64,000 nucleotides of DNA from Pseudobacter ginsenosidimutans (GTDB lineage Bacteria; Bacteroidota; Bacteroidia; Chitinophagales; Chitinophagaceae): assembly GCF_007970185.1 (NCBI RefSeq), contig NZ_CP042431.1, positions 2,976,001 to 3,040,000 on the forward strand, read 5' to 3'. Under the pieces are notes generated by a model that did not search any database, was not told where the DNA came from, and saw only the letters and a program-made list of their open reading frames with translations. The position numbers and the translations under genes are program-made. The number at the start of each line of letters is the position of its first letter. The stretch's first letter is position 1. Below are positions 12,123-44,487 of the stretch, piece by piece.

Positions 12123-12734
12123 TTGGAAACCAGCTACTCATCATACCAGGAAATTGAACTCATCGAAGCTTTCCGCGCCGGCAATGAACAAGCCTTCACG
12201 GAGGTCTACAAGCGCCTGTACAAGCGGGTTTACCTCTTCGCCAGCAAATACGTAACCCAACCCGCCGACGCCCAGGACCTTACCGCAGAAACCTTCGTTC
12301 AGCTCTGGAACAGACGTTCTGATTTCCATAATTTAGACGGCATCGCTGCCTTCCTCCACGTCACCGTACGCAATAAATGCTTCAACCTCCTCAAACACCA
12401 GAACATGAAGGAGGACAAAAAAGAAGAATTGCTTCAGCTCTTGAACGAACAAAACACTGAAGACTTCTACCTTGAGCGCGTACAGTCCGAACTCCTGCAC
12501 CGCATCTACGCCGAAGTAGACAAGCTTCCGCCGCGCATGCGGGAAATATTCCTCTTATCCTATCGGGAAGGACTTAAACCAGCCGAGATCGCAGCAAAAC
12601 TGCAGCTCCGCGTCCAGACCGTCACCAATCAACGGGTAAGCGCTGTCAGGCTTCTCCAGCAGGCCCTTCGCCAGGATCCGCTGGCAATCATCCTGCTGGT
12701 AATGCTTACAGAAGGCCCCGGACTCTTATCCTGA
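12123..12734 (+). CDS. ECF RNA polymerase sigma factor (module 1)
   Basis: Directs RNA polymerase to target promoters when released by its anti-sigma factor. Sigma-70 region 2 (AFTEVYKRLYKRVYLFASKYV, then AQDLTAETFVQLW) and region 4 (LPPRMREIFLLSYREGLKPAEIAAKLQL) are clear; there is no region 3, as in ECF factors. No ATG precedes region 2. I prefer TTG at 12123 (203 residues, LETSYSSYQEIELIEAF), the normal ECF length; TTG at 12030 would add an unlikely pyrimidine-encoded leader. It is followed 69 bases later by fecR. Its probable target is the susC promoter at 14122-14148. Confidence 0.9.
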   Translation: METSYSSYQEIELIEAFRAGNEQAFTEVYKRLYKRVYLFASKYVTQPADAQDLTAETFVQLWNRRSDFHNLDGIAAFLHVTVRNKCFNLLKHQNMKEDKKEELLQLLNEQNTEDFYLERVQSELLHRIYAEVDKLPPRMREIFLLSYREGLKPAEIAAKLQLRVQTVTNQRVSAVRLLQQALRQDPLAIILLVMLTEGPGLLS

Positions 12735-12803
12735 AAAAAAAATTCAAAAAAACTTAATGATCGGATGGTTGGTTTTGATCATCCGGTTGTAGAATATAAT
12801 AGT

Positions 12804-14057
12804 ATGACAACTGTTGACCAGATAGCAGACATATTGCTCAGGCATCTTCAGGGAACTTTATCCGATGCAGAACAGGAACAGCTCCGGCAATGGCTGTCTG
12901 TTTCTGCGCAACGCCGTCATTTCTTTGCGCAGCTGGATGATGAAGAAAAACTGCGTGAACAATTGCTGCTTTTCATTCCGGAAACAGAAGCAGCAACAGA
13001 AGACGCCATCTTCGCAAAGATCAATGCTATCAGGCATCAGGAAGAAGAAGCAAAAGTTATCCCCCTCCGGAAACGAGGCTGGATACGCTATGCAGCGGCT
13101 GCCGTAATATTAGTAGGAGGCGTGAGCTATTTCTGGATCACCGGCAGCAAAGATCAGCCTTCACAACCCAAGCCTGCACTCGCCAAAACCGAGATCCTGC
13201 CTGGCACCACCGGCGCAGTGCTCACACTGGCAGATGGAAGACAGGTAATACTCGACAGCGCAGGCAATGGCCTCATCGCCACCGAAAGCGGAACAGCAGT
13301 AGTATTGGAAAACGGAAAACTCCTTTATGGCGCCAATGATGAAGGAACGGGTAAAACATCTTTCAATACCATGACCACGCCCAAAGGAAGACAATTCCAA
13401 CTAATCCTTCCCGACGGCACCAAAGTCTGGCTCAATGCCAACAGCTCTATCCGCTACCCGGTTGAATTTGCCGGCCATGAACGCAAAGTATACATAGCAG
13501 GCGAAGCATATTTTGAAGTGGCAAAAGATATGCGCAGACCATTTTTTGTAAATGTGAACAATATTGCAGACGTTGAAGTACTCGGCACAGAGTTCAACGT
13601 GAACGCCTACGATAATGAAAAACTGATCCGCACCACGCTCATCAATGGCAGCGTACGCGTTGCAGCCCTTGAAACAGAACCCCGTACCGACGGGCGTTTG
13701 AACGAACTGATCCTAAAACCCGGACAAGAGGCCCAGGTAGCAAACATAACAGCTGCTCAAAAGCAACGACAAGGTAAGAATCCCATTTCTTTATCCGATG
13801 AAGTGGATATCGAAAAAGTCACCGCCTGGAAAAATGGATTCTTCAATTTCGAGAATGCGGACATAGGTGAAGTGATGAGACAGCTCGAACGCTGGTACGA
13901 TATAGAAGTTGTATACGAGAATAGTGTACCTGATATAGATTTTGTGGGAGAGATCGGCAGGAATTTCCCGCTCAAAGATGTCCTCGATTTCCTGCAACGG
14001 GCGGAAGTTTCTTTCCGTCTGGAAGAAGGCAGAAGACTGGTGGTGCTCAATAAATAA
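12804..14057 (+). CDS. FecR-family anti-sigma factor (module 1)
   Basis: Inner-membrane anti-sigma factor that receives a signal from the STN domain of its SusC partner and controls the adjacent ECF sigma. It has an N-terminal cytoplasmic ASD-like region, one membrane segment (IRYAAAAVILVGGVSYFWI, about residues 90-108), a FecR domain (TPKGRQFQLILPDG through VLGTEFNVNAYD) and a C-terminal DUF4974-like domain (FENADIGEVMRQLERWYDIEVVY). ATG at 12804 gives a natural N-terminus (MTTVDQIADILL); an in-frame ATG at 12765 exists but adds an uncharacteristic leader. It lies between the sigma gene and susC. Confidence 0.93.
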   Translation: MTTVDQIADILLRHLQGTLSDAEQEQLRQWLSVSAQRRHFFAQLDDEEKLREQLLLFIPETEAATEDAIFAKINAIRHQEEEAKVIPLRKRGWIRYAAAAVILVGGVSYFWITGSKDQPSQPKPALAKTEILPGTTGAVLTLADGRQVILDSAGNGLIATESGTAVVLENGKLLYGANDEGTGKTSFNTMTTPKGRQFQLILPDGTKVWLNANSSIRYPVEFAGHERKVYIAGEAYFEVAKDMRRPFFVNVNNIADVEVLGTEFNVNAYDNEKLIRTTLINGSVRVAALETEPRTDGRLNELILKPGQEAQVANITAAQKQRQGKNPISLSDEVDIEKVTAWKNGFFNFENADIGEVMRQLERWYDIEVVYENSVPDIDFVGEIGRNFPLKDVLDFLQRAEVSFRLEEGRRLVVLNK

Positions 14058-14121
14058 GAACCTTACCCATATTCGAATAGTTCATCCCCGATTGAATAAA
14101 AAAACCGCCACGGGTGCGACC

Positions 14122-14148
14122 GTGACGGCAATGATTTCAGTCGGTCAT
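14122..14148 (+). promoter_or_regulatory. Putative ECF-sigma promoter of module 1 susC
   Basis: GTGAC (14122-14126), 17 bases, GTCAT (14144-14148), placed 50 bases before the ATG at 14198. The same arrangement occurs before the module 2 susC (30888-30913, 16-base spacer). The GTGAC box lies in the 3' arm of an imperfect hairpin (CCGCCACGG 14105-14113 / CCGTGACGG 14120-14128) that could also end the fecR transcript. Confidence 0.55.
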
Positions 14149-14171
14149 AAATGGCTTTGCATTCACATTTA

Positions 14172-14197
14172 CTAACAACCAAACCACTTTGCAATTT
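14172..14197 (+). promoter_or_regulatory. Conserved leader before module 1 susC
   Basis: The 26 bases before the ATG start with CTAACAACCAAACCA and end GCAATTT directly before ATGCA. The module 2 susC has nearly the same leader at 30943-30967 (CTAACAACCAAATCA ... GCGATTT-ATGCA). This conservation fixes the start at 14198 and suggests a translation or RNA-level signal. Confidence 0.6.
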
Positions 14198-17100
14198 ATG
14201 CAAAAAAACTGCTATTGGCTACCGGACCGGTTCAAAGAAATCCGGCGGCGCACAAAAACCATGCTGGTTATGAGATTGACTACTTTGTTACTGACTGCGG
14301 CCATCTTACAGGCCAACGCTTCAGGTCTCGCCCAAACCGTGACTGTTTCAGGGAAGAACATCCCCCTGAAAAAACTCTTTTCCACCATCAAACAGCAGAC
14401 AGGCTATGTGATCTTCAGCAATGCCATTGCATTCAAAGATGCACATGGATTCACGCTTTCCGTACGTGATATGCCGCTGCGAACATTGCTGGATTCTATC
14501 AGCAATGATCTGAATCTCACGTACGTGATCAAAGAAAAGACCATCGTACTGAGCCGCAAAACAACAAGCCCTGTAACTGTTGATCCGGTGATAGCATCGG
14601 CTTTCGCACCACCTGCAAAAGTTTCAGGCGTAGTTCGCACTTCCGAGGGAGAACCACTTGGCGGCGCTTCCATCTCACTGAAAGGTCAGACCGTAGGTAA
14701 AGTAACTTCCGCCAAAGGTGAATTCAGCCTGAGCTCCCTTCCGGAAAATGCAGTGCTGATCGTGAGCATGCTGGGCTACGAACCACTGGAGATCAGCATC
14801 CGCAAACTTAATGACGGATACACTGCTGTTATTACCAGCGCAGGCCCCAATAAAGGTTCTATCAAAGTAAGCTCGGGTAATAATGTAACCATCGATATCA
14901 CATTGATGTCGAGAGAAACCAAAATGAATGATGTGGTGGTAACAGGTTACATGACCATCGACAAAAACAAATATGTAGGCGCTGTAACTACCGTTGATCC
15001 GGACAAGATCAAAGTGGCAGGTGAAACAAGTATCGACCAGATGCTACAGGGACATGTGCCCGGTATGCTGGTGACGATGTCTTCCGGCCAGGTTGGTTCC
15101 ACTCCAAAGATCAGGGTGCGCGGTACTTCCACCATCCTGGGAAACCAGGAACCACTCTGGGTAGTGGATGGTGTGATCCAGCGCGACCCGCTTCCCATGC
15201 CCAATGGCAGCGGCTCACTCGCCGGTGATATGGGTGAGCTCAGGCTCATCGCTTCCAACGCCATCTCATGGCTCAATCCCAACGACATTGAATCCATCAC
15301 GGTATTGAAAGATGCCTCCGCTACTGCTATCTATGGTTCTCAGGCTGCCAATGGTGTGATCGTACTCACTACCAAAAAGCCAAAACCCGGACAGATGGCC
15401 GTGAACTACACCGGCAGCTATACTGTTGGTCAGCGTCCCCGCTATTCCATGTATGATCTCATGAACTCACAGGAACTGATGCAGTTCTCCAAAGAAGTAT
15501 ATGAAGCCCGCGACAGCTACACCTACGAAGTACTGCCGATCGGTTATGGCGGCCTGATCCAGAAACTCCAAAACAAAGAGATCGATCAGGCTACTCTTGA
15601 AAGGGAATACAGGAAAATGGAAACGATGAATACAGACTGGTTCGATCTCCTGTTCCGTAATGCTTTCAGCCAGAACCACAGTATCAGCATCTCAGGTGGT
15701 ACGGAAAAACTGAGCAACAGAACATCCTTCAACGTACAACAACAGAAAGGCGAAGCTATCGGTAACGACCTGCTCACCTTCTCCGCCACATCCAATACCA
15801 CTGCACGTTTCAACGATCGTCTTACCGTCAACTTCCTGTTGAACGGAACAGTTCGTGAAGCCGACGGTTTTGCATACGGAGTAGATCCTTTCGAATATGC
15901 ATACAACACCTCACGCACCATTCCCATGTACAATGATGATGGTACACTTGCCTATCATTACAAAAGAGGGAACAGCAGTAATTCATTCCCCAGCAAATTC
16001 TTCTATAATTACAATATCCAGAATGAGCTGAACAACACAAATAATAACAACAGTACAAAATCATTATCATCCACCGTTGATGCAAGATTGAAGATCACGA
16101 AAGACCTGCAATACCAGGGGCTCTTCTCTTACAATATCGCAGCTACGGATGTGAAGTCTTATGCAACTGAGCTTTCCAATTATATCACACAGTTCAGGGG
16201 CTACGAATTCGGTTCAGTGCTGAGCAATTCTCCGCAGGAACTGGCCAGTGCACTGCCTTTCGGAGGTCTGGTACAATTGCAGTCGAGCACCAACAGGGGT
16301 TATACATTACGTAACAGCCTTGTGTACAACAAGGTGTTCAATGATAAGCACGCAGTAACTGCGCAGCTTGGAACCGAAGCCAGGTCTACCATTACAGAAG
16401 GAAGTATGAATACGCGTTATGGCTACCTGCGCTATCGCGGAGAGCAATTCGCTCCTGTTCCTTTGGTAGTTGTTTCCAATGGCAACGGTACTGCAACCCC
16501 TCTGCATGAAGCTATGCGCCAGAATTCTTCCATCGTGAATACAGAGCTCAATTACCTGAGTGAATATTTTTCCGGTGTGTATGCTTATGACCAGCGCTAT
16601 ATCTTCAATGTGAATGCGCGCCTGGATGCCAGTAACCGTTTTGGCCAGGATAAGAACAAACGCTTCCAGCCAACCTGGTCTATCGGCGGTAAATGGAGGA
16701 TCGGCAACGAGCCTTTCCTCAGTGGACTCCACTGGCTCAACAGCTTCGATCTGTCTGCTTCTTATGGCTACCAGGGTAATACCGTGGAAGCCGTAAGCCC
16801 ATACCTCATCGCTACTGATGGAGGCCTGAGCAGTCTCTTCAAACAATACACGCTCTCCATCAAGTCACTTCCTTACCTGGAACTGGGATGGGAGAAAACG
16901 AAGTCCTGGAACTTCGGTCTCGATTTCTCTTTCCTCAGCGGCAGGCTGAACGCCACTTTCAACTACTACAAGAAGATCAGTAATGTACTTGCCTCCAGGG
17001 AAGTGCCTGTTGAGAATGGTATGAACTCTGCAACTGTATTCGGTTCTGAAATGGAAAACAAAGGTTATGACCTCATCGTGAATGTGGTGCCGGTGCGTAC

Positions 17101-17881
17101 CAAAGATTTCACCTGGCAGTTCTCTGTAAATACCGGATTGGCCAGGAACACACTCAAGGAAAACCAGCGTATCAATACCAGGGCTGATTTTCTCAATGGT
17201 CAGGCCATCGTGAATGGACAATCATATTCCACTTTCTATTCCTATTCATACAAAGGATTGAATCATTCTACCGGAAGACCGGAGTTCAATAATATGGACA
17301 TCAAGCTTACTGCCAACGATCTGGACTACCTGGTGAAGAGTGGTAAACTGGAGCCGGATTTCAGCGGAGGCTTCAACACTTCTGTTCGATACAAGAGCTT
17401 TTCATTCAGTGCACAGTTTGCTATGGCATTCGGAGCTCAAAAGCGTTTACCGGTTTTCTATAACAACAGTGGTGCGCCAACTCCAGAGCAGAATGTACCG
17501 AGATTGCTGAACGATCGCTGGAAACAGCCGGGTGACGAAGCTTACACCAATATCCCTTCAGTGCCTGCAGGTAATCCGAACCGGATCAATATCAACCTTC
17601 CCACCATTGTTCCTTTTGGCATTTCTCCTTACGAGATGTACAATAATTCTGACCTGCGTGTAGCAGATGTTGATTTCATCCGTTGCCGTCAGATCTCCCT
17701 GGCATATGATCTGCCGCAGACCCTGGTGAAGAAGATTCGCTCCAAACGTATGAATGTCGGTTTCAGTTTGGCTAACCCCTTCCTCGTATCATTCGATGAT
17801 AAATGGAATGGATACGATCCTGAAACCGGAGGCTGGCCTGCAAGGAGGACTGCATCATTGTCTATTAATATGTCGCTCTAA
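14198..17881 (+). CDS. SusC-family TonB-dependent receptor with STN signalling domain (module 1)
   Basis: Outer-membrane importer and sensor. After an extended N-terminal leader and signal peptide (LTTLLLTAAILQANASGLAQ) there is an STN (secretin/TonB short N-terminal) domain, about residues 46-125 (VSGKNIPLKKLFSTIKQQTG; MPLRTLLDSISNDLNLTYVI), which contacts FecR. Next come a carboxypeptidase-regulatory-like domain (VSGVVRTSEGEPLGGASISL), DVVVTGY, the plug (LWVVDGVIQ; DIESITVLKDASATAIYG) and a barrel ending LSINMSL. It is about 1227 residues. ATG at 14198 is chosen over 14189 because the leader immediately upstream is conserved with the module 2 susC. SusD follows after 19 bases. Confidence 0.95.
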   Translation: MQKNCYWLPDRFKEIRRRTKTMLVMRLTTLLLTAAILQANASGLAQTVTVSGKNIPLKKLFSTIKQQTGYVIFSNAIAFKDAHGFTLSVRDMPLRTLLDSISNDLNLTYVIKEKTIVLSRKTTSPVTVDPVIASAFAPPAKVSGVVRTSEGEPLGGASISLKGQTVGKVTSAKGEFSLSSLPENAVLIVSMLGYEPLEISIRKLNDGYTAVITSAGPNKGSIKVSSGNNVTIDITLMSRETKMNDVVVTGYMTIDKNKYVGAVTTVDPDKIKVAGETSIDQMLQGHVPGMLVTMSSGQVGSTPKIRVRGTSTILGNQEPLWVVDGVIQRDPLPMPNGSGSLAGDMGELRLIASNAISWLNPNDIESITVLKDASATAIYGSQAANGVIVLTTKKPKPGQMAVNYTGSYTVGQRPRYSMYDLMNSQELMQFSKEVYEARDSYTYEVLPIGYGGLIQKLQNKEIDQATLEREYRKMETMNTDWFDLLFRNAFSQNHSISISGGTEKLSNRTSFNVQQQKGEAIGNDLLTFSATSNTTARFNDRLTVNFLLNGTVREADGFAYGVDPFEYAYNTSRTIPMYNDDGTLAYHYKRGNSSNSFPSKFFYNYNIQNELNNTNNNNSTKSLSSTVDARLKITKDLQYQGLFSYNIAATDVKSYATELSNYITQFRGYEFGSVLSNSPQELASALPFGGLVQLQSSTNRGYTLRNSLVYNKVFNDKHAVTAQLGTEARSTITEGSMNTRYGYLRYRGEQFAPVPLVVVSNGNGTATPLHEAMRQNSSIVNTELNYLSEYFSGVYAYDQRYIFNVNARLDASNRFGQDKNKRFQPTWSIGGKWRIGNEPFLSGLHWLNSFDLSASYGYQGNTVEAVSPYLIATDGGLSSLFKQYTLSIKSLPYLELGWEKTKSWNFGLDFSFLSGRLNATFNYYKKISNVLASREVPVENGMNSATVFGSEMENKGYDLIVNVVPVRTKDFTWQFSVNTGLARNTLKENQRINTRADFLNGQAIVNGQSYSTFYSYSYKGLNHSTGRPEFNNMDIKLTANDLDYLVKSGKLEPDFSGGFNTSVRYKSFSFSAQFAMAFGAQKRLPVFYNNSGAPTPEQNVPRLLNDRWKQPGDEAYTNIPSVPAGNPNRININLPTIVPFGISPYEMYNNSDLRVADVDFIRCRQISLAYDLPQTLVKKIRSKRMNVGFSLANPFLVSFDDKWNGYDPETGGWPARRTASLSINMSL

Positions 17882-17900
17882 ACATTAATGTTTGATCACA

Positions 17901-19319
17901 ATGAAAAAGAAATTATTCTATATAACCGCCATCATGGGAGCAACTCTCTTCGGAAGTTGTTCCAAATTCCTCGAAGAGAAATCGCAGAGCGAAGTGATCC
18001 CGAAAACAACTGTGGACTTCAGGGAGCTGCTAATGGGCTCTGGATATTATCCTTCCCAGGAACCTGCCGCATTTCTTTACTTCATGGATGATGATGTTGA
18101 GTTCAACTCAACCTTCGATAACGGATCGGCAGTAGGAAGCTCCACGGCAAAAATGTATTATCCTGCTTTTTCCTGGCAGCCGTTCTTTGTTGATTATAAT
18201 GGATTGGGCGATCCTGTGGCTCAGGATCCCGGCACTACAGGATATGCTACCTACTACGCCTGGATCAAAGGCTGTAATGCAGTGCTCGATTATATCGATG
18301 ATGCCATCGGTACACAGGCGGAACGCGATCGTGTGAAAGCGGAAGCCCTGGCCGTACGTGCGCTTTACTACTGGCGTCTCGTTAACCTCTACGGAGATCC
18401 ATACAATTCAAATCCTAACGGACTGGCCGTTCCGCTGAAGCTAACTTCCACTATCGAGGAAGTACCCACGAAGCGCGCCACTGTTAAAGAAGTGTACGAT
18501 GTGATCGTGCGAGATCTGAGAGAAGCAACCAGGCTGATGGACCCGATGCCGGTTGTTCGCACGGATTATCATATCAATCAGCCGGCCATTCATATCCTGC
18601 TCTCCCGTGTATATCTTTTCATGGAGAACTGGGAAGGATCTGTGGCTGAGGCAGACAAAGCTTTCGAACAGGGAAGCCGTCTCTGGGATATGACGCAGCT
18701 CACTGCCGCTTACCTTCACAATTATTCCAATCCGGAAGTGGAGTGGCTGTATGGTGGCAGTACACAGCCTGATCAATCCACTTATATCCCCTCCAATCAT
18801 TTGCTGGGCATGTTCGATGAAAATGATGCACGCCGCAAATATGGATTTGGATTGAGTAACCAGAATGTGAATTACGTATTGGTATCCAAACTTGCTACAG
18901 GCGTTGATCTCAGGCAGAGCATCCGCACTTCCGAAGCCGTCCTTAACAGAGCTGAGGCAAATGTTCAGCTGAATCAACTGACCCCGGCTATGAATGATCT
19001 CAATGCATTGCGCAGGTATCGCATTCCCAACTATGCAGATGAGAATATTACAGACAAAGCACAGTTGCTGCAGGCTATCCGGGATGAGCGCAGAAAGGAA
19101 TTCTGTTATGAGCTGTTCCGCTGGTTCGATCTCCGACGCTACGGAATGCCTTCCATTTCCCATGTTTACAAAGCTGAGCCAGGTCAACCGGACCAGACCT
19201 ACGTTTTGAAAGAGAAGGATCCTATGTACGTATTGCCTTTCCCGAACAGCCTGCTGATCCGTAACCCGGCACTGGAACAGAATCCTTCCGCTAAAATGGG
19301 CGAAAGGCCAGGCAATTGA
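17901..19319 (+). CDS. RagB/SusD-family lipoprotein (module 1)
   Basis: Surface substrate-binding partner of the receptor at 14198-17881. The 472-residue protein has a lipoprotein signal (ATLFGSC, Cys about 19) followed by SKFLEEKSQSEVIP, typical of SusD N-termini. It has VRALYYWRLVNLYGDPY and a C-terminal IRDERRKEFCYELFRWFDLRRYG signature. ATG at 17901 places the signal peptide correctly; an in-frame TTG at 17892 is less likely. It is co-transcribed with the next lipoprotein, 26 bases downstream. Confidence 0.94.
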   Translation: MKKKLFYITAIMGATLFGSCSKFLEEKSQSEVIPKTTVDFRELLMGSGYYPSQEPAAFLYFMDDDVEFNSTFDNGSAVGSSTAKMYYPAFSWQPFFVDYNGLGDPVAQDPGTTGYATYYAWIKGCNAVLDYIDDAIGTQAERDRVKAEALAVRALYYWRLVNLYGDPYNSNPNGLAVPLKLTSTIEEVPTKRATVKEVYDVIVRDLREATRLMDPMPVVRTDYHINQPAIHILLSRVYLFMENWEGSVAEADKAFEQGSRLWDMTQLTAAYLHNYSNPEVEWLYGGSTQPDQSTYIPSNHLLGMFDENDARRKYGFGLSNQNVNYVLVSKLATGVDLRQSIRTSEAVLNRAEANVQLNQLTPAMNDLNALRRYRIPNYADENITDKAQLLQAIRDERRKEFCYELFRWFDLRRYGMPSISHVYKAEPGQPDQTYVLKEKDPMYVLPFPNSLLIRNPALEQNPSAKMGERPGN

Positions 19320-19345
19320 TTTACTAACGCTTAACATTATTCGAA

Positions 19346-35938: not shown

Positions 35939-35984
35939 TCCTTCCAAAACCATCACTCAATACTATACGCTAAAAGAATCATAT

Positions 35985-36933: not shown

Positions 36934-38475
36934 ATGAGGTCATTATTCTTTTATACTAATCTTCTGTTCTGCTTTGCTGCTGTTCTGATCAGTGGTTGCA
37001 AAAAAGATTTGGTGAACGGCAATAAAAAACTACCGGATCATTTTACCATTGAGCTGCCAGGGGAAGACCTGACACTGATCAGGGGCCTGGAAGGCGCAGA
37101 CTCTATCAAGGCAAGGATCAGGATACCGGGGCAATCATCTTCACAATTTGATACAGCCGCTTATACCTTCATTTGGACCAGTCTCTCCAATGGAGACACG
37201 CTTAGTCTGAAGCCATACCTTATACCCGGTGATTTTGACGGATTACCTGCTGTTCTGAATTCCGTTTTACTCACCGTAAAAGAAAAGAAAACAGGAATAG
37301 TGGAAATAGCCACCAGTTCGGTTTCCATTACTACGCCAACACGCGAGGGATGGATAATACTGGGAGAAAAAGCCGGTGCTTCACAACTCGGCATGCTTAC
37401 CTACACTACACAGGGGTACAAGAAATTCGTGGACCTGGCAACTGAACTGGGAAAGAATATACCGCTCAGCGGAAAACCAGTCTGCATCAATGCGATAGGC
37501 AGCGATATCTATTTCGGATTGAGTGTACTGCAATGGGTGGGCATCACCACGGACCAGGAGATCAAGGTACTGCAGAGCATGGACTTTGTAGTGGACGAGA
37601 ATATTTCCAATTTTCTTACCAGTACTTTTCAACCCGGTCCGGCAAATCCTGTCAGGATCGAAAAGACCGGCTATACAAGTTTTACAGCCAATAAAGGTGA
37701 CGATCTGTTTTTTACAAGCCTGTTCTACCTGAAATATATGGGCCTCATGATGGTTCAGCAATTGAATGAATGGAATGGTCAGCCTTTCCATGTTTCCAAA
37801 ATGCATACCTATGTGGGACCAGGCCGCGGGCCTTTTGATTATAGCCGCCTGGTATATGATCTGGACGAATACAAATTCAGATGGGTACCTGATGACGGAC
37901 ATGATCTTAGTCTTCAAACCCCTTTTTCGATGGATGGTTTTCAACCATATGCCATACAGAACAAAATGAGTGAGCCTGGTGAAGAAAGCCTGATCCTTTC
38001 ATTGCTGCATAATCCGGTAACCCAGCAGAGTTACATGCTGCAATTCCTGACAAATGGAATAGTGAAAGAAACCAAACAGATCGCTTATGCCGATGCCGCG
38101 GATATCATCGCTTCCAGATTCATCGAGATCGATCACAATACAGGATACATCATCTATGTAAAAGGAAACAAAGTGATGGCCTATGATTATACCATTGGCC
38201 AGACCTTCATGCTGCTGGATATGGGCAATGAATCCATCAGCCTGATGAAATTTGAAAAATACAATCAGGGATTCAGCAAAATGCCCGGCCGTGTTGAATT
38301 GTATGATGAGTTGTTCAAAAGACTGTTGGTTTGTACCTATGATGCAACGAGCCCCGATAATAGCGGAACATTCAGATTATACCAGATACCATTAGGACAT
38401 CAGGCGCCAGTGCTTGAATCTGAAGAAGCAGGGTTCCCCAAAATAGTGGACGCTTCGTTTGTGCCTATCCATTAG
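36934..38475 (+). CDS. PKD-like family lipoprotein
   Basis: A 513-residue lipoprotein (FAAVLISGC, Cys about 22). The N-terminal 120 residues form an Ig/PKD-like beta region (FTIELPGEDLTLIRG; YTFIWTSLSNGDTL); the C-terminal part is a repeated beta structure suggestive of a propeller (ILGEKAGASQLGML; YIIYVKGNKVMAYDY). It matches the PKD-like family found downstream of SusC-SusD-DUF4843 in many Bacteroidota. Probably a surface-exposed ligand-handling component. Last of the outer-membrane genes of module 2. Confidence 0.8.
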   Translation: MRSLFFYTNLLFCFAAVLISGCKKDLVNGNKKLPDHFTIELPGEDLTLIRGLEGADSIKARIRIPGQSSSQFDTAAYTFIWTSLSNGDTLSLKPYLIPGDFDGLPAVLNSVLLTVKEKKTGIVEIATSSVSITTPTREGWIILGEKAGASQLGMLTYTTQGYKKFVDLATELGKNIPLSGKPVCINAIGSDIYFGLSVLQWVGITTDQEIKVLQSMDFVVDENISNFLTSTFQPGPANPVRIEKTGYTSFTANKGDDLFFTSLFYLKYMGLMMVQQLNEWNGQPFHVSKMHTYVGPGRGPFDYSRLVYDLDEYKFRWVPDDGHDLSLQTPFSMDGFQPYAIQNKMSEPGEESLILSLLHNPVTQQSYMLQFLTNGIVKETKQIAYADAADIIASRFIEIDHNTGYIIYVKGNKVMAYDYTIGQTFMLLDMGNESISLMKFEKYNQGFSKMPGRVELYDELFKRLLVCTYDATSPDNSGTFRLYQIPLGHQAPVLESEEAGFPKIVDASFVPIH

Positions 38476-38511: not shown

Positions 38512-38545
38512 GGAGGCAGAATTGCCTTCCGGGGATCTTTTTGCC
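38512..38545 (+). terminator. Hairpin between lipoprotein and ABC genes, module 2
   Basis: GGAGGCA (38512-38518) pairs with TGCCTTC (38523-38529) around a 4-base loop, with one G-U pair, followed by ATCTTTTTG. It occupies the same position as the hairpin at 20287-20317 in module 1, between the outer-membrane part and the transporter part of the operon. Weak terminator or attenuator. Confidence 0.45.
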
Positions 38546-38583
38546 CAATAGTAATTCAATCATTTTTTAATACTGAAACCCAT

Positions 38584-39507
38584 ATGAGTAGCATTTTAAA
38601 GATCGAAAATCTTTCTCACCGGTATAGTGCAGCCTGGGCTGTTCGGGATATCAATCTCGAAATAGCGCAAACCGGCGTCATTGGCCTGTTGGGATCGAAT
38701 GGTGCAGGCAAGTCCACTACCATGAATATCATTTGCGGTGTGTTGAATCAAACTGAAGGAAAGGTTTTTATCGATGGAAAAGATACAAGGAAGGAACCCG
38801 AAGCTGCGAAAATGAATATCGGCTTCCTGCCACAGAGCCCGCCCCTGCACAGTGATTTCACAGTGAATGAATACCTCACTTATGCTGCAGGGCTTCGACT
38901 GATGGAAAAAAGCACAATCAAAAGCGCTGTGGAAGAGGCTATGGAGAGAACGGGGATTTCTCATTTCAGCTCCAGGCTCATCAGTAATCTTTCCGGTGGC
39001 TACAAACAGCGTGTGGGCATTGCACAGGCGATCATTCATAAACCACGGCTCGTGGTGATGGACGAGCCTACCAATGGCCTTGATCCAAACCAGATCATCG
39101 AAGCACGAAAACTGATCCGGGAGATCGCGCAGGAAAGAACTGTGCTCCTGTCTTCACATATCCTTTCTGAAATTCATCTGCTCTGCAGGGAAGTGATCAT
39201 GATAGAAGCCGGAAGGATCGTATTCTCTGATACAATGGATGCATTCAATAATTATATCCAACCCGGTACCATGCTGTTGAAAATGGAAAACCCTCCTCCA
39301 TTGTCTGAGCTTCTTTCCATCAAAGGTGTATCGAAGGCCGAATACCTTACCGATAAGCAGGCAAGGCTTTATTTCGATGGCGACCAGGATATAACAGAAA
39401 GGATCATCGAAACCGCCGTGAAGAGCGGATGGAGAGTGAGAGAAGCCAACCTGGACAAGAACCTGCTGGACGACATCTTTAAACAATTATCTACTCAATC
39501 CCTATAA
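38584..39507 (+). CDS. ABC transporter ATP-binding protein (module 2, GldA-like)
   Basis: A 307-residue ATPase. Walker A GSNGAGKST (residues 37-45), Q-loop FLPQ, signature LSGGY, Walker B LVVMDEPTNGLD and H-loop SSHIL are intact. It is a close paralogue of the module 1 protein at 20413-21342, starting with the same NLSHRY motif and sharing Walker A and signature surroundings. It lies 12 bases before its permease gene. Confidence 0.94.
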   Translation: MSSILKIENLSHRYSAAWAVRDINLEIAQTGVIGLLGSNGAGKSTTMNIICGVLNQTEGKVFIDGKDTRKEPEAAKMNIGFLPQSPPLHSDFTVNEYLTYAAGLRLMEKSTIKSAVEEAMERTGISHFSSRLISNLSGGYKQRVGIAQAIIHKPRLVVMDEPTNGLDPNQIIEARKLIREIAQERTVLLSSHILSEIHLLCREVIMIEAGRIVFSDTMDAFNNYIQPGTMLLKMENPPPLSELLSIKGVSKAEYLTDKQARLYFDGDQDITERIIETAVKSGWRVREANLDKNLLDDIFKQLSTQSL

Positions 39508-39519
39508 TTACTGACAGAC

Positions 39520-41838
39520 ATGAAAACAATCTTGCGGATATCAAGAGCAGAGCTGCGCAACCTTTTCTATTCTCCCGTTGCCTGGTTCCTTGCTGTGGTG
39601 TTTATGGTTCAATGTGCATTTTTTTATAATAGAATTGTGTATGCATGGGCCAGGATGCAGGAACTGGGAATGAAAACAGCCAAATTCAAAGGCTTTGATC
39701 TTTCCCTCACCAAGTCAATGTTCCTGAATCCGGACGGAATGTTCGTGAATGCCATGAGCAATCTTTATTTATTCATTCCTCTGCTTACGATGGGCCTGTT
39801 GAGCCGCGAGGTGAATAGTGGAAGTATTAAATTACTGTATTCATCTCCCATCAAAACAAGACAGATAGTATTCGGAAAATACCTGGCTATGATGGTGTTC
39901 AACCTGGTGCTGATAACTATCATTGGCTTCTTTATGGTGTCTGCCGGTTTCAATATCAAGTCTGTGGATTATGGCCTGTTGATTGCTGCTTCTATCGGGT
40001 TCTACCTGCTGGTATGTGCGTATGCGGCTATTGGTCTGTTCATGTCGAGCCTCACTAATTACCAGATCGTTTCTGCAATAGGAACATTTATTATTGTGCT
40101 GGTGCTGAGCCGTATTGGCGGGCTTTGGCAGAAATTCGATTTTGTAAGGGACCTCACTTATTTCCTTTCGATATCCGGAAGGGCAGAGAAAATGTTGTAT
40201 GGCCTGATCACTACCAAAGACCTGTTCTATTTTTTTGCAGTGATCTGCATGTTCCTGGGATTCACACTGCTTAAATTAAGGTCTGTGAGGGAAGTGAAAC
40301 CCTGGTATATAAAAGCAGCCAGATACTCCGGTATTACTGTAGTGGTGCTGCTTTTGGGATATATTACTTCGCGTCCTGCATTGATCGGCTACTGGGATAC
40401 AACAGATTCCCAGGCAAATACCATCCATCCCAGGGTACAGAAAATAGTGAAAGGACTTGGTAAGGAACCGCTGGAAGTAACGTTGTACACAAACCTGATG
40501 GGGAAAAATGGATCCCTGGGTCTGCCTGAGAACAGGAATAATTACCTGTCGGAGTTATGGGAATACTATGTAAGGTTCAAGCCTGATATTGAATTCAAAT
40601 ATGAATATTACTACGATGCCAAACCTGATCATTACCTGTTCAGGGCATTTCCCGGAAAGAATATTCATGAAATAGCAAAGGAGCTTGCGAAGTCGATGGA
40701 CCTGAACCTGTCACACTTCAGAACGCCGGAGCAGATGAAACAGATCATCGATCTGGAAGATGAGGATTATGGCCTGGTGATGCAGCTGAAATACAAGGGA
40801 AGGACTACTTTCCTGCGAACCTTTACAGATAATCCCTGGCCGGGTGAAGAGCATGTGGCCGCTGCAATGGCGAGACTGCAATTCCCTAAAATGCCAACCA
40901 TACTATTCACAACAGGCAACCTGGAGCGTGATCCGAACATTATGGGTGAGCGTGGATACTCCATCAGCACCACAGCGAAACCGCAGCGGGTTTCTCTGAT
41001 CAATAATGGGATCGATATCGATACCATCAACCTGGAATACAAGGACATTCCTTATGACTCAATGAATATCGCGGCGCTGGTACTGGCTGATCCAAAAACC
41101 GAATTGAGTGAAACTGTAAAAAAGAAAATACAGGATTATATCGGTAAGGGAGGGAATTTCATGGTCCTTGGTGAGCCGCGCAAGGAAGATATCGTGAACC
41201 CTGTATTGAAGCCATTGGGTGTTCAGTTTGAAAAAGGAGTGATGGTGCAGCTTTCCAAACACAATGCGCCGGATATGATCATTCCTTTTCTTACCAATAC
41301 AGCAACAGATCTGGCAGAAGAAGTCATGTTGCTGAAGCTGAAGAGTAAACAGTTCGATAGCCTTTTCATCAGATCCGAGACTGTCCTTCCCGTTACCACC
41401 CTGGATAGTTCAGCCTTCACCGTTAAACCAATAACGATAGCAATGCCTGATGTATGGTTGAAAAAAGGTGTTTTGGTAAGGGATTCTGTTCCGCCGGTTT
41501 ATACAGCTACTGAGGGAGATTTCAAAAATGACGCTTTTCATACAACGGTTGGGCTTACACGAAAGATCAATAACAAAGAACAAAGGATAATCGTGGCCGG
41601 TGATGCTGATTTTATCAGTAACAAATTCCTGGGAGGCGATTATTTCGGCAGGGCGCTCTATAGTTGGTTGGATAATAACGAATACCCCGTTTACTCGCCA
41701 AGACCCATTTACAAGGATAACCTTTTCCTGATCACCCCGGAAACAGCTGACCTGCTGATTACCATCAATACGTGGATCATCCCTGCTATCCTGGCTATCA
41801 TAGGAACTGTTATCATCATCCGAAGAAAAAGAAAATAA
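39520..41838 (+). CDS. GldF-GldG-like fused ABC permease / auxiliary protein (module 2)
   Basis: A 772-residue paralogue of the module 1 permease. The membrane half has MGLLSREVNSGSIKLLYSSP and ends before TSRPALIGYWD. The extracytoplasmic GldG-like half has AALVLADPKTEL and IIVAGDADFISN, and the chain ends with a membrane helix and RRKRK. The FLAGHGER motif of module 1 is changed to LFTTGNLERD. A single base separates its stop from the next gene's ATG. Confidence 0.9.
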   Translation: MKTILRISRAELRNLFYSPVAWFLAVVFMVQCAFFYNRIVYAWARMQELGMKTAKFKGFDLSLTKSMFLNPDGMFVNAMSNLYLFIPLLTMGLLSREVNSGSIKLLYSSPIKTRQIVFGKYLAMMVFNLVLITIIGFFMVSAGFNIKSVDYGLLIAASIGFYLLVCAYAAIGLFMSSLTNYQIVSAIGTFIIVLVLSRIGGLWQKFDFVRDLTYFLSISGRAEKMLYGLITTKDLFYFFAVICMFLGFTLLKLRSVREVKPWYIKAARYSGITVVVLLLGYITSRPALIGYWDTTDSQANTIHPRVQKIVKGLGKEPLEVTLYTNLMGKNGSLGLPENRNNYLSELWEYYVRFKPDIEFKYEYYYDAKPDHYLFRAFPGKNIHEIAKELAKSMDLNLSHFRTPEQMKQIIDLEDEDYGLVMQLKYKGRTTFLRTFTDNPWPGEEHVAAAMARLQFPKMPTILFTTGNLERDPNIMGERGYSISTTAKPQRVSLINNGIDIDTINLEYKDIPYDSMNIAALVLADPKTELSETVKKKIQDYIGKGGNFMVLGEPRKEDIVNPVLKPLGVQFEKGVMVQLSKHNAPDMIIPFLTNTATDLAEEVMLLKLKSKQFDSLFIRSETVLPVTTLDSSAFTVKPITIAMPDVWLKKGVLVRDSVPPVYTATEGDFKNDAFHTTVGLTRKINNKEQRIIVAGDADFISNKFLGGDYFGRALYSWLDNNEYPVYSPRPIYKDNLFLITPETADLLITINTWIIPAILAIIGTVIIIRRKRK

Positions 41839-41839
41839 G

Positions 41840-43177
41840 ATGCGCCTTCAAACAGACGAACAAACCATCGAAGATCTCAGGATCTTCAGCAAGAAAGATA
41901 GTCCGGGCATTTATGATATTTACAATCAAACCCATACCCGTGGCGGAGAGGCAGCATTGCAGGAAATGTTCCGTCATCCGTTGGGAAGCAGGGAGCTCAT
42001 CAATAAACGCAGTTCAGTGATTGAGCAGTTTGCCGGATCGGGCGCCCGCTTTCCCTACAGCGCTTCCTTATTCGATATGGCGGAGAAATACCTGGCACAT
42101 GCAGGTGAACAGGAAACGCGATCTCCGAATGGAGCAGCATTCGGAGAAAAGGAAATTCATAACGGCGTAGGAGCAGTGATTGAGCTGATCAGGGGCACCC
42201 ATTCTTTTCTCTTTTCAAAAGAGCTGGGGACAGTGAAGGATTATTCAGATGAGAAGGGAGAAATATTGATGCTGCTGACTGATCCTGCTTTTGAACCGGC
42301 ACTGAAGGATCATTCCAAAGGGAAGTTGTCTTACGCGACTGTAACCGCTTTCGATACTTTGTTCAGGGTGCGGGAGTATGCGAAGATCAAAAAACTGCTG
42401 GGTTATATTTTCCGTCTCGATGTATACCTCTCAGTTGCGGAGGTGGCCAATAAAAGAAATTTCGTTTTCCCGAAAGCACATGAAAAAGGGAATTATGAAC
42501 TGGAGATAACCGGCCTCTATCACCCTGAATTGAAAAACCCGGTAAGCAATGATATCAGTTTGAATGCAGTTTCTCCTGTGTTGTTTTTGACCGGGGCGAA
42601 TATGGCGGGGAAATCCACATTCCTCAGATCACTGAGTACGGCTGTGTATATCGCGCATATGGGATTCCCCGTGGCGGCAAGGTCGATGCAATTCCCGGTA
42701 ATGGATGGGATTTACACCACAATCAATCTTCCGGATAACCTGGGCATTGGCGCGAGCCATTTTTACGCGGAGGTTTTGCGTGTAAAGAAGATGGCGGAGG
42801 AGCTGCATTCCGGAAAGTGTTTGTTCATCATATTCGATGAGCTGTTCCGGGGCACCAATGTGAAAGATGCACATGAGGCTACAGTGACCGTTACCAACGG
42901 TTTTTCGCAAAAAAGAAACAGTTTGTTCGTGATCTCTTCTCATATTGTAGAGGCCGGTGAGCAACTGATGCAGAATCCGAAGATCGGGGTCCGGTACCTG
43001 CCAACACGCATGAACGGCCATACACCCGAATACACCTACAAACTGGAAAATGGAATAACAGAAGACAGGCATGGCATGATCATCATCAACAATGAGGGAA
43101 TCCTGGAAATATTGAAAAATGGAATGAAAAAGAAAGCGAAGCACGTTCTTTCAAACACTAAACATTCACTGGCATGA
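41840..43177 (+). CDS. MutS-like ATPase, A-type (module 2)
   Basis: A 445-residue MutS-core ATPase with A-type markers: Walker A GANMAGKST from residue 252, IIFDELFRGTN, GASHFYAEV, DRHGM and NEGILEIL. The core signature TRGGEAALQEMFRHPL is present; the mismatch-recognition and connector domains are absent. The C-terminal tail is lysine-rich. It overlaps the next gene by 4 bases (ATGA), as in module 1. Confidence 0.9.
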   Translation: MRLQTDEQTIEDLRIFSKKDSPGIYDIYNQTHTRGGEAALQEMFRHPLGSRELINKRSSVIEQFAGSGARFPYSASLFDMAEKYLAHAGEQETRSPNGAAFGEKEIHNGVGAVIELIRGTHSFLFSKELGTVKDYSDEKGEILMLLTDPAFEPALKDHSKGKLSYATVTAFDTLFRVREYAKIKKLLGYIFRLDVYLSVAEVANKRNFVFPKAHEKGNYELEITGLYHPELKNPVSNDISLNAVSPVLFLTGANMAGKSTFLRSLSTAVYIAHMGFPVAARSMQFPVMDGIYTTINLPDNLGIGASHFYAEVLRVKKMAEELHSGKCLFIIFDELFRGTNVKDAHEATVTVTNGFSQKRNSLFVISSHIVEAGEQLMQNPKIGVRYLPTRMNGHTPEYTYKLENGITEDRHGMIIINNEGILEILKNGMKKKAKHVLSNTKHSLA

Positions 43178-44487
43178 GTTTCAAGATAGACAAGCAAACC
43201 CTGGAAGAGCTGAACCTGTTGGGTAAATTCAGGCAGGGATCCGTATACCATTTGTTCAATAAGGTGAAAACGAGAGGTGGAGAGAAGCTGCTGGATGATA
43301 TGTTCCATCATCCCCTGCTGGATGAAAATGCCATTAATAACAGAACAGCCGTGTTCCGGTTCTTCCAGGATCAGCAATTCAGTTTCCCATTTGATGTGAT
43401 GCAGATAAACCTGATGCGGGAATATCTGGACGCTGGCGGGAAAAAAAATGAGGCGATGGTGCTGATCGATATCATGTTTAAAAAGTTATTGTCCGGTCTC
43501 ACCAGGGATGAGCGATTCAGGAAGATCGTACAGGGATTGCAGGCCACCATCGTTACCCTGAAAAAATGTGCAGCAATTGCAGAAACGATGCAAACAAAGA
43601 ATGGTGTATTTGAAAACAGGGTGCAGGCGGTAAGAGCTGTGTTGCGCGGGAAGCAGTTGGATAGCCTCCTCAATACTGATATTTACCAAAACCTTCCACT
43701 GCAAAAGATCGCCCACTTTGATTACCTGCTCAAGAATGAGCTGGCGAAGGCCATGCAGGAGATCATGGAATTCATATATGAGCTGGATGTGAATATTGCC
43801 GTGGGTAGTGTTGCAGCCGCACGTGGGTTCACCTATGCGAGGGCGCTGCCTGCTGCGCGGGATGTCCTTTCTGCAAGCGATCTCAGGCATCCCTGTTTGG
43901 AATCTGCTATCGGGAACGATATCCTGATGAGTGAAACAAAGAATGTGATCTTTTTGACAGGGGCGAATATGGCGGGCAAATCAACCCTGATGAAAAGCAT
44001 CGGTATCCTCATGTACCTGGCGCATATGGGTTTCCCGCTTGCGGCAAAGGATACTGAGTTTTCTGTAAGGGAAGGAATGTATACGAGTATCAATGTGGCG
44101 GATAATATCGGACTGGGCTATAGTCATTTTTATGCAGAAGTGGTAAGAGTGAAGCAGGCTGCTGAAGCGGCGGCATCCGGAAGCAGGTTGCTGTTGATGT
44201 TTGATGAATTGTTCAAGGGAACGAATGTAAAAGATGCATACGATGGAACGCTTTCTGTTACCCAGGCATTTTCCGGCTATACCGATTGTTTGTTTGTGGT
44301 GTCTACCCATATTATTGAAGTGGGTGAAGCCCTCCGGGAAAATGATAATATCCGGTTTGCCTTTATGCCAACAGTAATGGAAGGTGCACGGCCGAGATAT
44401 ACGTACAGGTTACAGGAGGGGATAACAGAAGACAGGCAGGGAATGATGATCATCAGGAATGAAGGGATCCTGGAATTATTGAAATAG
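43174..44487 (+). CDS. MutS-like ATPase, B-type (module 2)
   Basis: A 437-residue B-type paralogue: TRGGEKLLDDMFHHPL, Walker A GANMAGKST from residue 263, LMFDELFKGTN, GYSHFYAEV, STHIIEVG and DRQGM. Intact ATPase motifs suggest activity. It closes module 2, with a strong terminator 46 bases after the stop. Translationally coupled to the A-type gene. Function unknown. Confidence 0.9.
   Translation: MSFKIDKQTLEELNLLGKFRQGSVYHLFNKVKTRGGEKLLDDMFHHPLLDENAINNRTAVFRFFQDQQFSFPFDVMQINLMREYLDAGGKKNEAMVLIDIMFKKLLSGLTRDERFRKIVQGLQATIVTLKKCAAIAETMQTKNGVFENRVQAVRAVLRGKQLDSLLNTDIYQNLPLQKIAHFDYLLKNELAKAMQEIMEFIYELDVNIAVGSVAAARGFTYARALPAARDVLSASDLRHPCLESAIGNDILMSETKNVIFLTGANMAGKSTLMKSIGILMYLAHMGFPLAAKDTEFSVREGMYTSINVADNIGLGYSHFYAEVVRVKQAAEAAASGSRLLLMFDELFKGTNVKDAYDGTLSVTQAFSGYTDCLFVVSTHIIEVGEALRENDNIRFAFMPTVMEGARPRYTYRLQEGITEDRQGMMIIRNEGILELLK

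Follow-up and report, generated by a model that had tools for sequence, protein, structure and literature searches.

SusCD pairs mostly import glycans, and what takes their cargo further once it is past the outer membrane is often unknown. Systems of the SusCD/RagAB type with FecI/FecR consist of a SusC with STN domain, plug and barrel, a SusD, accessory lipoproteins, an ECF sigma factor and a FecR, and all of these recur in the module of Pseudobacter ginsenosidimutans described here, but in the module the run goes on with the genes of an ABC ATPase, of a GldF-GldG fusion and of two MutS-like ATPases. With the GldA-GldF-GldG gliding complex the module shares a GldA-like ATPase, a GldF-like permease and a GldG-type IFT52-like domain, but its GldF and GldG form one chain, the genes stand in a SusCD context and the scores of copy 2 of the window lie far below the equivalog cut-offs. 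Similarly, the two MutS-like proteins, A and B, have domains III and V, the Walker motifs and the predicted fold of the MutS family, but differ from it in being short, in having no recognition domain, in their tandem arrangement and in their transport-gene context. KamC, a MutS-like ATPase that serves as reactivase of lysine 5,6-aminomutase, is likewise short and named for a role away from DNA; the MutS-like proteins of copy 2, however, score 110 and 98 bits with its model NF052383, against a cut-off of 300, and the module has tandem MutS-like chains with SusCD and ABC neighbours. Protein import across the outer membrane offers a further comparison. YddB pairs with PqqL. In the Fus system, as described in PMC6071955, the TonB-dependent receptor FusA and the M16 protease FusC are encoded in one operon for protein import. 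An M16 gene also lies near the modules of some relatives, whereas most modules of this genome are without one. To our knowledge neither Fus nor YddB-PqqL includes a SusD, a GldFG-type fusion or a MutS pair, and our literature search found no description of SusCD combined with a GldFG-like ABC transporter and a MutS-like pair.

The window, i.e., the whole stretch of 64,000 nucleotides that was analysed, contains two copies of the module with the following genes.

Copy 1
12030..12734, plus strand: ECF sigma factor (longest ORF; Pfam Sigma70_r2/r4_2)
12765..14057, plus strand: FecR anti-sigma factor (Pfam FecR and FecR_C)
14189..17881, plus strand: SusC/RagA TonB-dependent receptor with weak STN (Pfam Plug, CarbopepD_reg_2; STN below cut-off)
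17892..19319, plus strand: SusD lipoprotein (Pfam SusD-like_3 and SusD_RagB)
19346..20275, plus strand: lipoprotein-like accessory protein (post-SusD family profile, 66 bits)
20413..21342, plus strand: GldA-like ABC ATPase (Pfam ABC_tran)
21364..23691, plus strand: GldF-GldG fusion (Pfam ABC2_membrane_2 and ABC_transp_aux)
23707..25053, plus strand: MutS-like A (Pfam MutS_III and MutS_V; motifs invariant in alignment A1)
25050..26369, plus strand: MutS-like B (Pfam MutS_III and MutS_V; motifs invariant in alignment A2; ATGA overlap with A)

Copy 2
29080..30231, minus strand: FecR anti-sigma factor, divergent (Pfam FecR and FecR_C)
30275..30820, minus strand: ECF sigma factor, divergent (NCBIfam TIGR02985, 131 bits, above cut-off)
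30968..34465, plus strand: SusC/RagA receptor with STN (TIGR04056, 390 bits, above cut-off; STN 35.6 bits)
34475..35938, plus strand: SusD lipoprotein (Pfam SusD-like_3 and SusD_RagB)
35886..36896, plus strand: DUF4843-like lipoprotein, start uncertain (Pfam DUF4843, 20 bits, below cut-off)
36934..38475, plus strand: PKD_2 protein (Pfam PKD_2, 39.8 bits, barely above cut-off)
38584..39507, plus strand: GldA-like ABC ATPase (Pfam ABC_tran; TIGR03522 GldA below cut-off)
39520..41838, plus strand: GldF-GldG fusion (Pfam ABC2_membrane_2 and ABC_transp_aux)
41840..43177, plus strand: MutS-like A (Pfam MutS_V; MutS_III below cut-off; alignment A1)
43174..44487, plus strand: MutS-like B (Pfam MutS_III and MutS_V; alignment A2; ATGA overlap with A)

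Pfam and NCBIfam matches bear out the gene order and the families that the initial annotation had assigned in both copies, including a sigma factor and a FecR of their own, the pair of copy 2 lying on the minus strand. An STN domain had been claimed for both receptors; it passes the Pfam threshold in copy 2 but not in copy 1 (21.7 bits, cut-off 28.4). Likewise, the ATGA overlap between MutS A and B is present in both window copies, but at just 9 of 51 junctions scored genome-wide with longest-ORF starts. The accessory protein of copy 1, which the Pfam scan left without a match, was recognised by a profile built from modules of the P. ginsenosidimutans genome (its match is listed as L020), and the DUF4843-like lipoprotein of copy 2 clusters with the same kind of gene from eight other loci. 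Between the copies identity is 28% for SusC, 25% for SusD and 38% for GldFG, and 47%, 50% and 55% for MutS B, MutS A and the ATPase, respectively.

The count of two copies, correct for the window, was a large undercount for the genome, where 117 MutS_V matches resolve into 56 tandem A/B pairs and five singles. By profile search all 56 pairs belong to a same-strand run with SusC, SusD, GldA-like ATPase and GldF-GldG fusion, 55 modules sharing one gene order and one being rearranged; a SusC/RagA barrel gene with SusD directly downstream marks SusCD importer genes, and both are present in 56 of 56. In addition, the genome has 86 matches to the GldFG fusion and three modules that consist of SusCD and the ABC pair without a MutS pair. 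Across paralogues the median identity is 60-62% for the MutS proteins versus 24% for SusC. Some copies are recent, with MutS A up to 99% identical, and many of the 56 are products of duplication and not independent, so that results across genera and on co-occurrence weigh more.

Could the parts be neighbours by chance? The initial annotation had reasoned that they would be if relatives usually carried the MutS-like and GldFG genes far from SusCD. This neighbourhood test was run on 80 relatives, the best 80 of 584 in a scan of genome contigs, and the association withstood it: among these, 67 of the 74 whose upstream flank spans 6 kb or more carry ATPase, GldFG and SusCD upstream of the MutS pair. 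In four relatives (L151, L153, L159 and L161) the MutS pair lies directly upstream of sigma factor, FecR, SusC and SusD. In two others (L189 and L190) ATPase and GldFG are present with no SusCD found within 10 kb upstream, and in a third (L192) neither SusCD nor ABC genes were found in the 10 kb upstream of the MutS gene; these 10 kb were covered in all three loci, with ten ORFs scanned. It was seen after the fact that the fused MutS gene of L192 is preceded, at a distance of about 200 bases, by a gene for an oligopeptide transporter (POT) and that L189 has an M64 peptidase gene upstream, so that two of the three loci with no SusCD nearby carry peptide genes, in keeping with a peptide cargo. 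Among 117 genomes of the family, 15 have the GldFG fusion, 15 of these 15 have the MutS pair and 101 have neither; as no more than the 2 to 9 best candidates of each genome were scored in the phylum, class and family searches, these show presence and not number. Moreover, four genomes of another family have SusCD and the ABC genes without MutS, an M16 peptidase gene sitting there instead.

The suggestion that the parts work together thus gains from the recurrence of the set both in this genome and in the relatives with sufficient flank. As for the full set as a unit, the association stands, but the MutS pair is not obligatory, because the three modules here and the four genomes of the other family do without it, and SusCD is not quite obligatory, because L189, L190 and L192 show none nearby. 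Strict co-occurrence of all parts was therefore rejected, and the claim that SusCD, the GldA-like/GldFG ABC transporter and the MutS pair form one unit is well supported.

Judging by covariation, the module evolves in this genome as three blocks: a receptor block of SusC plug and barrel, SusD and lipoprotein, an inner machine of ATPase, GldFG, MutS A and MutS B, and a signalling cassette of sigma factor, FecR and the STN domain of SusC. Measured on near-full-length parts (48 to 54 of 56 modules per part, split genes being excluded and not joined), SusC, SusD and lipoprotein evolve jointly with r of 0.93 and the four parts of the inner machine with r of 0.73-0.93, compared to 0.51-0.60 between receptor and inner machine, where six between-block pairs were permuted and 0 of 999 permutations reached any of them. 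The STN domain covaries with the FecR C-terminus (r 0.68; 0 of 999 permutations), whereas SusC plug and barrel do not (r 0.00 and -0.02). This covariation fits a contact between STN and FecR and, together with a boundary that falls between STN and plug within SusC, supports an exchange of sigma-FecR-STN cassettes between receptors. For the analysis that gave dN/dS and the count of A/B overlaps, receptor types were taken from clusters, with L046 added and L012 dropped by hand, and nine modules are untyped; copy 2 of the window is outside the regulator rows because its sigma factor and FecR are on the other strand. The position of the cut predicts that swapping the STN domain would redirect regulation and leave the substrate unchanged.

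These data also bear on the idea that the genes of one ancestral locus were neighbours by accident, that repeated duplication spread them and that the linkage is functionally meaningless. The copies are indeed paralogues, some of them as recent as the nearly identical MutS A genes suggest. The set nevertheless persists in other genera and also occurs in a second gene order, GldFG and MutS are present together in each of the 15 genomes mentioned above, the remaining genes are still linked where regulators were replaced, and MutS A and B have low median dN/dS of 0.076 and 0.074, after saturation had removed 51 of 124 MutS A pairs and 57 of 97 MutS B pairs, so that we regard meaningless linkage as barely credible.

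What could a MutS-like pair do in such a module? Pfam MutS_V matches above cut-off and invariant Walker motifs place both proteins in the MutS ATPase superfamily: Walker A (TGANMAGKST), Walker B (DE) and SHxxxEV are invariant in alignments A1 and A2, and a predicted model has the MutS fold (E 2e-15). The chains have about 440 residues with matches confined to domains III and V, Pfam finds no mismatch-recognition domain in A or B, which sets them apart from mismatch-repair MutS, and the clamp region comprises about 98 residues in the alignment versus 191 in the genome's own MutS, i.e., it is some 93 residues shorter. In some Pedobacter and others A and B are fused into a single gene. A direct link between MutS A and the GldA-like ATPase was considered and rejected: over 30 modules of this genome with a single GldFG, the partial r of MutS A is 0.41 with the ATPase and 0.00 with GldFG, versus 0.01 and 0.18 in 58 single-GldFG relatives. 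Fold and intact ATPase motifs would also suit a clamp-less pair that acts on DNA and promotes or restrains recombination among the copies, driving the swapping of receptor-regulator cassettes, for which there is support as described above. We consider this highly improbable, since recognition domain and clamp region are absent, the pair is joined to an ABC transporter, and it also occurs in genomes with one to four GldFG matches (top candidates scored), where there is little to recombine.

The ABC part is of the GldAFG-like ABC-2 type according to Pfam (ABC2_membrane_2, ABC_transp_aux, ABC_tran) and to its predicted fold. The AlphaFold model of the copy 2 fusion (pLDDT 86) has the IFT52 N-domain as best fold match and NosY and PmtC as weaker ones, and copy 2 does not reach the gliding equivalog models (GldA 264 versus 402.6 bits, GldF 83 versus 288.5 bits). 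NosDFY and PmtCD are not known to be importers, and because of these fold relatives the ABC transporter of the module may export. Such a direction would suit an immunity function, in which SusCD lets in or detects peptide toxins made by competitors, the ABC-2 transporter and MutS expel or detoxify them and the many receptors track many toxins; the weaker fold matches to NosY and to PmtC of the PmtCD exporter, the many diverged paralogues and an induction through sigma factor and FecR, as befits a response, all agree with it. A high-affinity importer like SusCD would, however, be a costly answer to a toxin, periplasmic peptidases suit nutrition as well, and PADLOC gave no match above 18 bits for the MutS-like and GldFG proteins, on which grounds anti-phage defence was also rejected, and seven partial matches for the ABC ATPase, the best being mad3 with 93 bits. 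Efflux therefore appears quite improbable to us.

Hints about the substrate come from receptors and neighbouring genes. The closest solved chain to SusC of copy 1 is 8ypu_C (348 bits), the receptor being nearer to 8ypu/8ypt than to RagA, and the closest to SusC of copy 2 are RagA chains (124 bits). Among the best 80 of 584 relatives, 19 have an M16 match, 17 of them no more than 500 bases away from a module gene and in its orientation, and 11 have an S41 match; M16 is also found at all four MutS-less loci of the other family. Neither M16 nor S41 occurs at 20 control SusD loci, an enrichment that is soft because the controls come from one genome while the relatives share ancestry. One relative's M16 protein matches PDB entries including PqqL (258 bits) and, at 152 bits, chains that we take to be FusC. 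Within this genome M16 matches are found in 3 of 56 modules and S41 in 1 of 56, in stretches that reach about 2.5 kb past MutS B, and the two window copies have no M16 gene. TlpA was dropped as a sign of peptide processing: 10 of the 20 control stretches match, four with more than 170 bits, and 14 of the best 80 of 584 relatives exceed 190 bits. The accessory proteins scanned with Pfam, which are part of the neighbouring genes, are peptidases, TlpA, fatty-acid hydroxylase and DUF4843/PKD_2 proteins or have no assignment, and there is no glycoside hydrolase among them.

The M16 and S41 genes beside many relatives hint at peptide or protein substrates. Alternatively, the modules may be ordinary Sus-like systems for glycans or other non-peptide compounds, ABC transporter and MutS serving envelope maintenance or the energy coupling of a large receptor set and the peptidases being incidental. 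Glycans being the main cargo of SusCD pairs, TlpA being about equally common at control loci and M16 or S41 matches being confined to no more than 4 of the 56 modules of this genome would all be in keeping with this, but the lack of a glycoside hydrolase in the Pfam scan, the nearness of the copy 2 receptor to RagA and the M16 gene at each MutS-less locus of the other family are not, and overall we judge it unlikely.

The reading that we favour, with a probability of roughly 0.4, is a FecIR-controlled, substrate-induced polypeptide uptake unit with a dedicated ABC step and the MutS-core pair as cytosolic ATP-driven partner. At the outer membrane SusC-SusD would capture a substrate of polypeptide type (a small protein or an oligopeptide), whereupon the STN domain of loaded SusC would signal to FecR, the sigma factor would be freed and the module, presumably co-transcribed, switched on. 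In the periplasm the ABC machine of GldA/GldF-GldG type would take charge of the cargo, its large IFT52-like domain probably facing this compartment; in some relatives the M16 or S41 peptidase of a neighbouring gene may assist. In the cytosol A and B, reduced to domains III and V without recognition domain or clamp, may form a heterodimer that serves the unvarying part of the machine as ATP-driven clamp or switch, the likeliest target being the ABC transporter or its arriving cargo, and that does not act in mismatch repair. The outer parts would diversify with the substrate as the inner machine stays constant, and exchange of the signalling cassette would place sister receptors under different regulators. 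Of the regulated two-membrane transport proposed initially, regulation agrees with the covariation of STN and FecR, and transport across two membranes is an inference from the anatomy of the module. A more far-reaching version, in which the MutS fold was recruited as a dedicated, ATP-driven heterodimer in the cytosol for a two-membrane polypeptide machine, acting on protein or ABC transporter instead of DNA, and recombination of receptor cassette, signalling cassette and inner machine yields some 56 differently wired importers, is tentative and somewhat unlikely.

That the parts co-evolve while the on-switch is exchanged suggests that the module is a regulated uptake machine of a kind not described before, which perhaps takes up peptides or proteins. 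By setting outer receptor, inner-membrane ABC transporter and MutS-like pair side by side, the module offers a testable route from the surface to the cytosol. Short MutS-like proteins gain a concrete context outside DNA repair, and the paralogue set shows how receptors and regulators may be rewired within one genome.

Both copies of the module in the window were verified gene by gene by Pfam, copy 2 additionally by NCBIfam, and each consists of an ECF sigma factor, the anti-sigma factor FecR, SusC, SusD, one or two accessory proteins, a GldA-like ATPase, a GldF-GldG fusion (GldFG), MutS-like A and MutS-like B. The gene order described in the initial annotation is thereby borne out, as is its assignment of an own ECF sigma and FecR to each copy, the pair of copy 2 being divergent. 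The ATGA overlap between the MutS A and MutS B genes is likewise present in both.

12030-26369, copy 1 of the module
26460-29000 (-), DUF5686 protein of 846 residues with a carboxypeptidase-like N-terminus, separating the two modules
29080-44487, copy 2 of the module, with sigma and FecR on the minus strand
44641-46742 (+), 3' of copy 2 and in the same direction, SPFH/Band 7 protein with a SHOCT tail and zinc-ribbon protein

The two copies are far apart in their outer parts (SusC 28% identity, SusD 25%) and closer in the inner ones (ATPase 55%, MutS A 50%, MutS B 47%, GldFG 38%). The claim of two copies holds for the window but not genome-wide, as a MutS_V search of the 7.8 Mb genome gave 117 matches, made up of 56 tandem MutS A/B pairs and 5 singles. 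In the 20 kb retrieved around each pair, profiles built from the modules found SusC, SusD, ATPase, GldFG and the MutS pair in this order on one strand in 55 of 56 cases. Sigma and FecR immediately precede 54 of these 55 ordered modules on the same strand, the exception being copy 2 of the window, and the lipoprotein profile matches 51. The 56th pair (L012) belongs to a module with the order MutS A-B-sigma-FecR-SusC-SusD-DUF4843-PKD-ATPase-GldFG (L213), in which SusC and SusD are broken into several reading-frame pieces. Gaps between module genes are mostly below 150 bases, and a second GldFG gene is found in 26 of the 55 modules (16 before the MutS pair, 10 after it). At E 1e-100 the genome has 86 GldFG matches, 81 of them inside the 55 ordered modules; the counts in the genus's other five genomes are 17, 36, 17, 29 and 5. 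In ten modules (L010, L018, L036, L044, L046, L048, L049, L058, L059, L062) a second sigma-like gene lies between those of the accessory lipoprotein and the ATPase, and all five of these proteins that were inspected show a hydrophobic segment close to the C-terminus. In 16 modules (L013, L014, L015, L017, L025, L027, L029, L036, L040, L041, L045, L048, L058, L059, L061, L062) one or more module genes, most often SusC (8 cases), are split into two adjacent reading-frame pieces, by decay or sequencing error.

Is the association also found outside this genome? A neighbourhood search, proposed initially as a check, has been run on the best 80 of 584 loci from a profile scan of named genomes. These relatives include Chitinophaga, Pseudoflavitalea, Pseudobacter, Niabella, Niastella, Longitalea, Flavitalea and Puia, and also Pedobacter, Mucilaginibacter, Sphingobacterium and MAGs named Odoribacteraceae, Rikenellaceae and Bacteroidales. 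The upstream flank is shorter than 6 kb in six of them, and among the 74 usable ones 67 carry SusC, SusD, ATPase and GldFG on the same strand 5' of MutS A, which upholds the association. At L151, L153, L159 and L161 the MutS pair lies immediately 5' of sigma-FecR-SusC-SusD. The profiles found no SusCD in the 10 kb upstream at L189 and L190, where ATPase and GldFG are present, and neither SusCD nor ATPase/GldFG upstream at L192; since the profiles derive from the window's genome, a distant SusCD may escape them, and Pfam detected no SusC or SusD among ten ORFs from these three loci. In L192, from a MAG named Odoribacteraceae, the gene of a POT-family oligopeptide transporter (8031-9695, +) precedes a fused MutS A-B (9893-12673, +) by about 200 bases. 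In L189, a Bacteroidales MAG, the gene of an M64 peptidase that has BACON domains by Pfam (440-1816, +) lies upstream of GldFG-ATPase-GldFG-GldFG-MutS A-B. A and B form one open frame at 14 loci of the best 80 (eight titled Pedobacter, one Mucilaginibacter), as they do in two modules of the window's own genome, L039 and L054 (872 and 899 residues). A fatty-acid-hydroxylase gene, identified by a Pfam scan of the L175 copy (17727-18497), follows the second GldFG of fused-MutS modules there and at five other Pedobacter-titled loci.

Searches of family, class and phylum scored the top 2 to 9 candidates per genome and thus show presence, not number. Of 117 family genomes, 15 match the GldFG model, and every one of these is among the 16 that match the MutS model; the sixteenth, G668, has a single MutS match of 321 bits. 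Class-wide, at E 1e-80, the MutS model has matches in 5 of 395 genomes, and two of these matches are weak. Full-length GldFG matches above 600 bits occur in 7 of 296 phylum genomes, the own one included, and the loci of the other six were inspected. G099 has one full module with MutS and a second locus truncated within MutS A by the start of the contig. In four genomes of a family other than Chitinophagaceae (G021, G222, G202, G170) sigma-FecR-SusC-SusD-ATPase-GldFG is present without MutS, and the next gene encodes a protein of about 937 residues; profiles identify it as an M16 peptidase in all four, and Pfam does so for the one that was scanned (L109). G002 carries SusCD, DUF4843, PKD_2 and GldFG-ATPase-GldFG, with MutS absent. 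Because such MutS-less modules exist, the constant core is SusCD plus the ABC part, and MutS is a near-constant addition in the relatives' genera, where loci were found via MutS, so that its absence could not show. The own genome has at least 150 SusD-like matches (150 of 190 candidates scored), and among 20 control SusD loci chosen outside MutS modules ATPase and GldFG lie in SusD's direction at one, L201, itself a MutS-less module; at L196 and L212 the module genes are on the opposite strand and part of neighbours. Two further MutS-less modules, L214 and L215, were reached via unassigned GldFG matches.

Correlation of pairwise distances across the own modules, of which 48 to 54 could be used for each part, resolves three blocks. 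SusC, SusD and lipoprotein form an outer block (r 0.93) and ATPase, GldFG, MutS A and MutS B an inner one (r 0.73 to 0.93), the two correlating at 0.51 to 0.60, with 0 of 999 permutations reaching any of six pairs tested. Sigma and FecR correlate with the remaining parts at -0.11 to 0.07 and with each other at 0.25. Within SusC, columns 20-115 (the signalling domain STN) follow the C-terminal part of FecR (r 0.68, 0 of 999 permutations; against SusD 0.08), whereas plug and barrel follow SusD (r 0.90 and 0.93; against FecR 0.00 and -0.02). The correlation switches at columns of about 120 to 200, which we place in the carboxypeptidase-like domain. In the two most similar receptor pairs (77% identity) FecR is 31-37% and STN 27-40% identical; the pair L028/L057 is unswapped (SusC 73%, STN 74%, FecR 50%). 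The nearest neighbour by FecR agrees in receptor type 18 times out of 45, the chance level, against 46 of 46 by SusD and 42 of 44 by GldFG. In 52 relatives from the best 80 of 584 the contrast has the same direction (STN-FecR 0.74, STN-SusD 0.41; barrel-FecR 0.54, barrel-SusD 0.97) and is weaker because shared descent raises all correlations.

What kind of proteins are the MutS-like pair? Each matches MutS domains III and V by Pfam, and 15 A and 14 B sequences show no variation in Walker A, the acidic pair of Walker B or SHxxxEV. The region of the clamp is apparently missing, since about 98 residues stand between the two stretches aligning to the genome's own MutS, which has 191 there. Pedobacter caeni has A and B naturally fused, and the predicted model of this fusion (pLDDT 79.6, pTM 0.65) matches MutS structures at E 2e-15. 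Median dN/dS, near saturation, is 0.076 for MutS A (73 pairs) and 0.074 for MutS B (40 pairs). Median identity among paralogues is 60% for MutS A and 62% for MutS B, about as for the ATPase (65%) and far above SusC (24%), which suggests that A and B serve a constant partner. L065 (5663-6976, -) encodes a lone MutS-like protein of this short type, scoring 310 bits against the MutS A profile and adjoining M1-peptidase and amidohydrolase genes, and no module genes were found near it in the 12 kb stretch. L066 (5403-7187, +) has a further MutS-like protein, of 594 residues with domains III and V, followed by a histidine-kinase gene, and L067 (5787-6299, -) a fragment of 170 residues, a few kb from the L056 module, resembling the remnant of a lost copy. 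For GldFG, the predicted model (pLDDT 86.1) best matches the N-terminal domain of IFT52 (E 2e-5) and more weakly NosY of NosDFY and PmtC of PmtCD (E 0.001 to 0.02), matches that we take to represent the soluble and the membrane part, respectively. Hydropathy puts membrane helices on both sides of the soluble part, and the residues at the end of the chain are basic, so the soluble part is probably periplasmic.

Several hints bear on the substrate. The closest solved relatives are 8ypu/8ypt for copy 1 SusC and RagA for copy 2 SusC. RagAB imports peptides. It is described as associated with protein uptake (PMC11817032). By profiles, M16 genes occur in 19 of the best 80 of 584 relatives, 17 of them on the same strand and no more than 500 bases from a module gene; S41 genes occur in 11 and TlpA genes in 15. 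The own modules have M16 in 3, S41 in 1 and TlpA in 3 of 56, in stretches that stop about 2.5 kb after MutS B, so that genes farther downstream are missed. Control SusD loci gave no M16 or S41 profile match (0 of 20) and TlpA in 10 of 20, four above 170 bits. The closest solved chains of the M16 protein at L150 are 9ldy (531 bits), PqqL (258 bits) and 6b03/6b05/6brs (about 150 bits), the last presumably FusC. FusC is described as an M16 protease in one operon with the TonB-dependent receptor FusA, in protein uptake (PMC6071955).

Literature searches on this combination of parts gave no title or abstract describing it, nor a joint match for SusD, MutS, FecR and ABC transporter, which is limited evidence as only open-licence papers were covered. 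The SusCD-GldFG-MutS unit is real, conserved and expanded. Most likely the module is a FecIR-controlled system for uptake of polypeptides, with a dedicated ABC step and an ATPase pair built on a MutS core, where we infer the substrate and the role of MutS.
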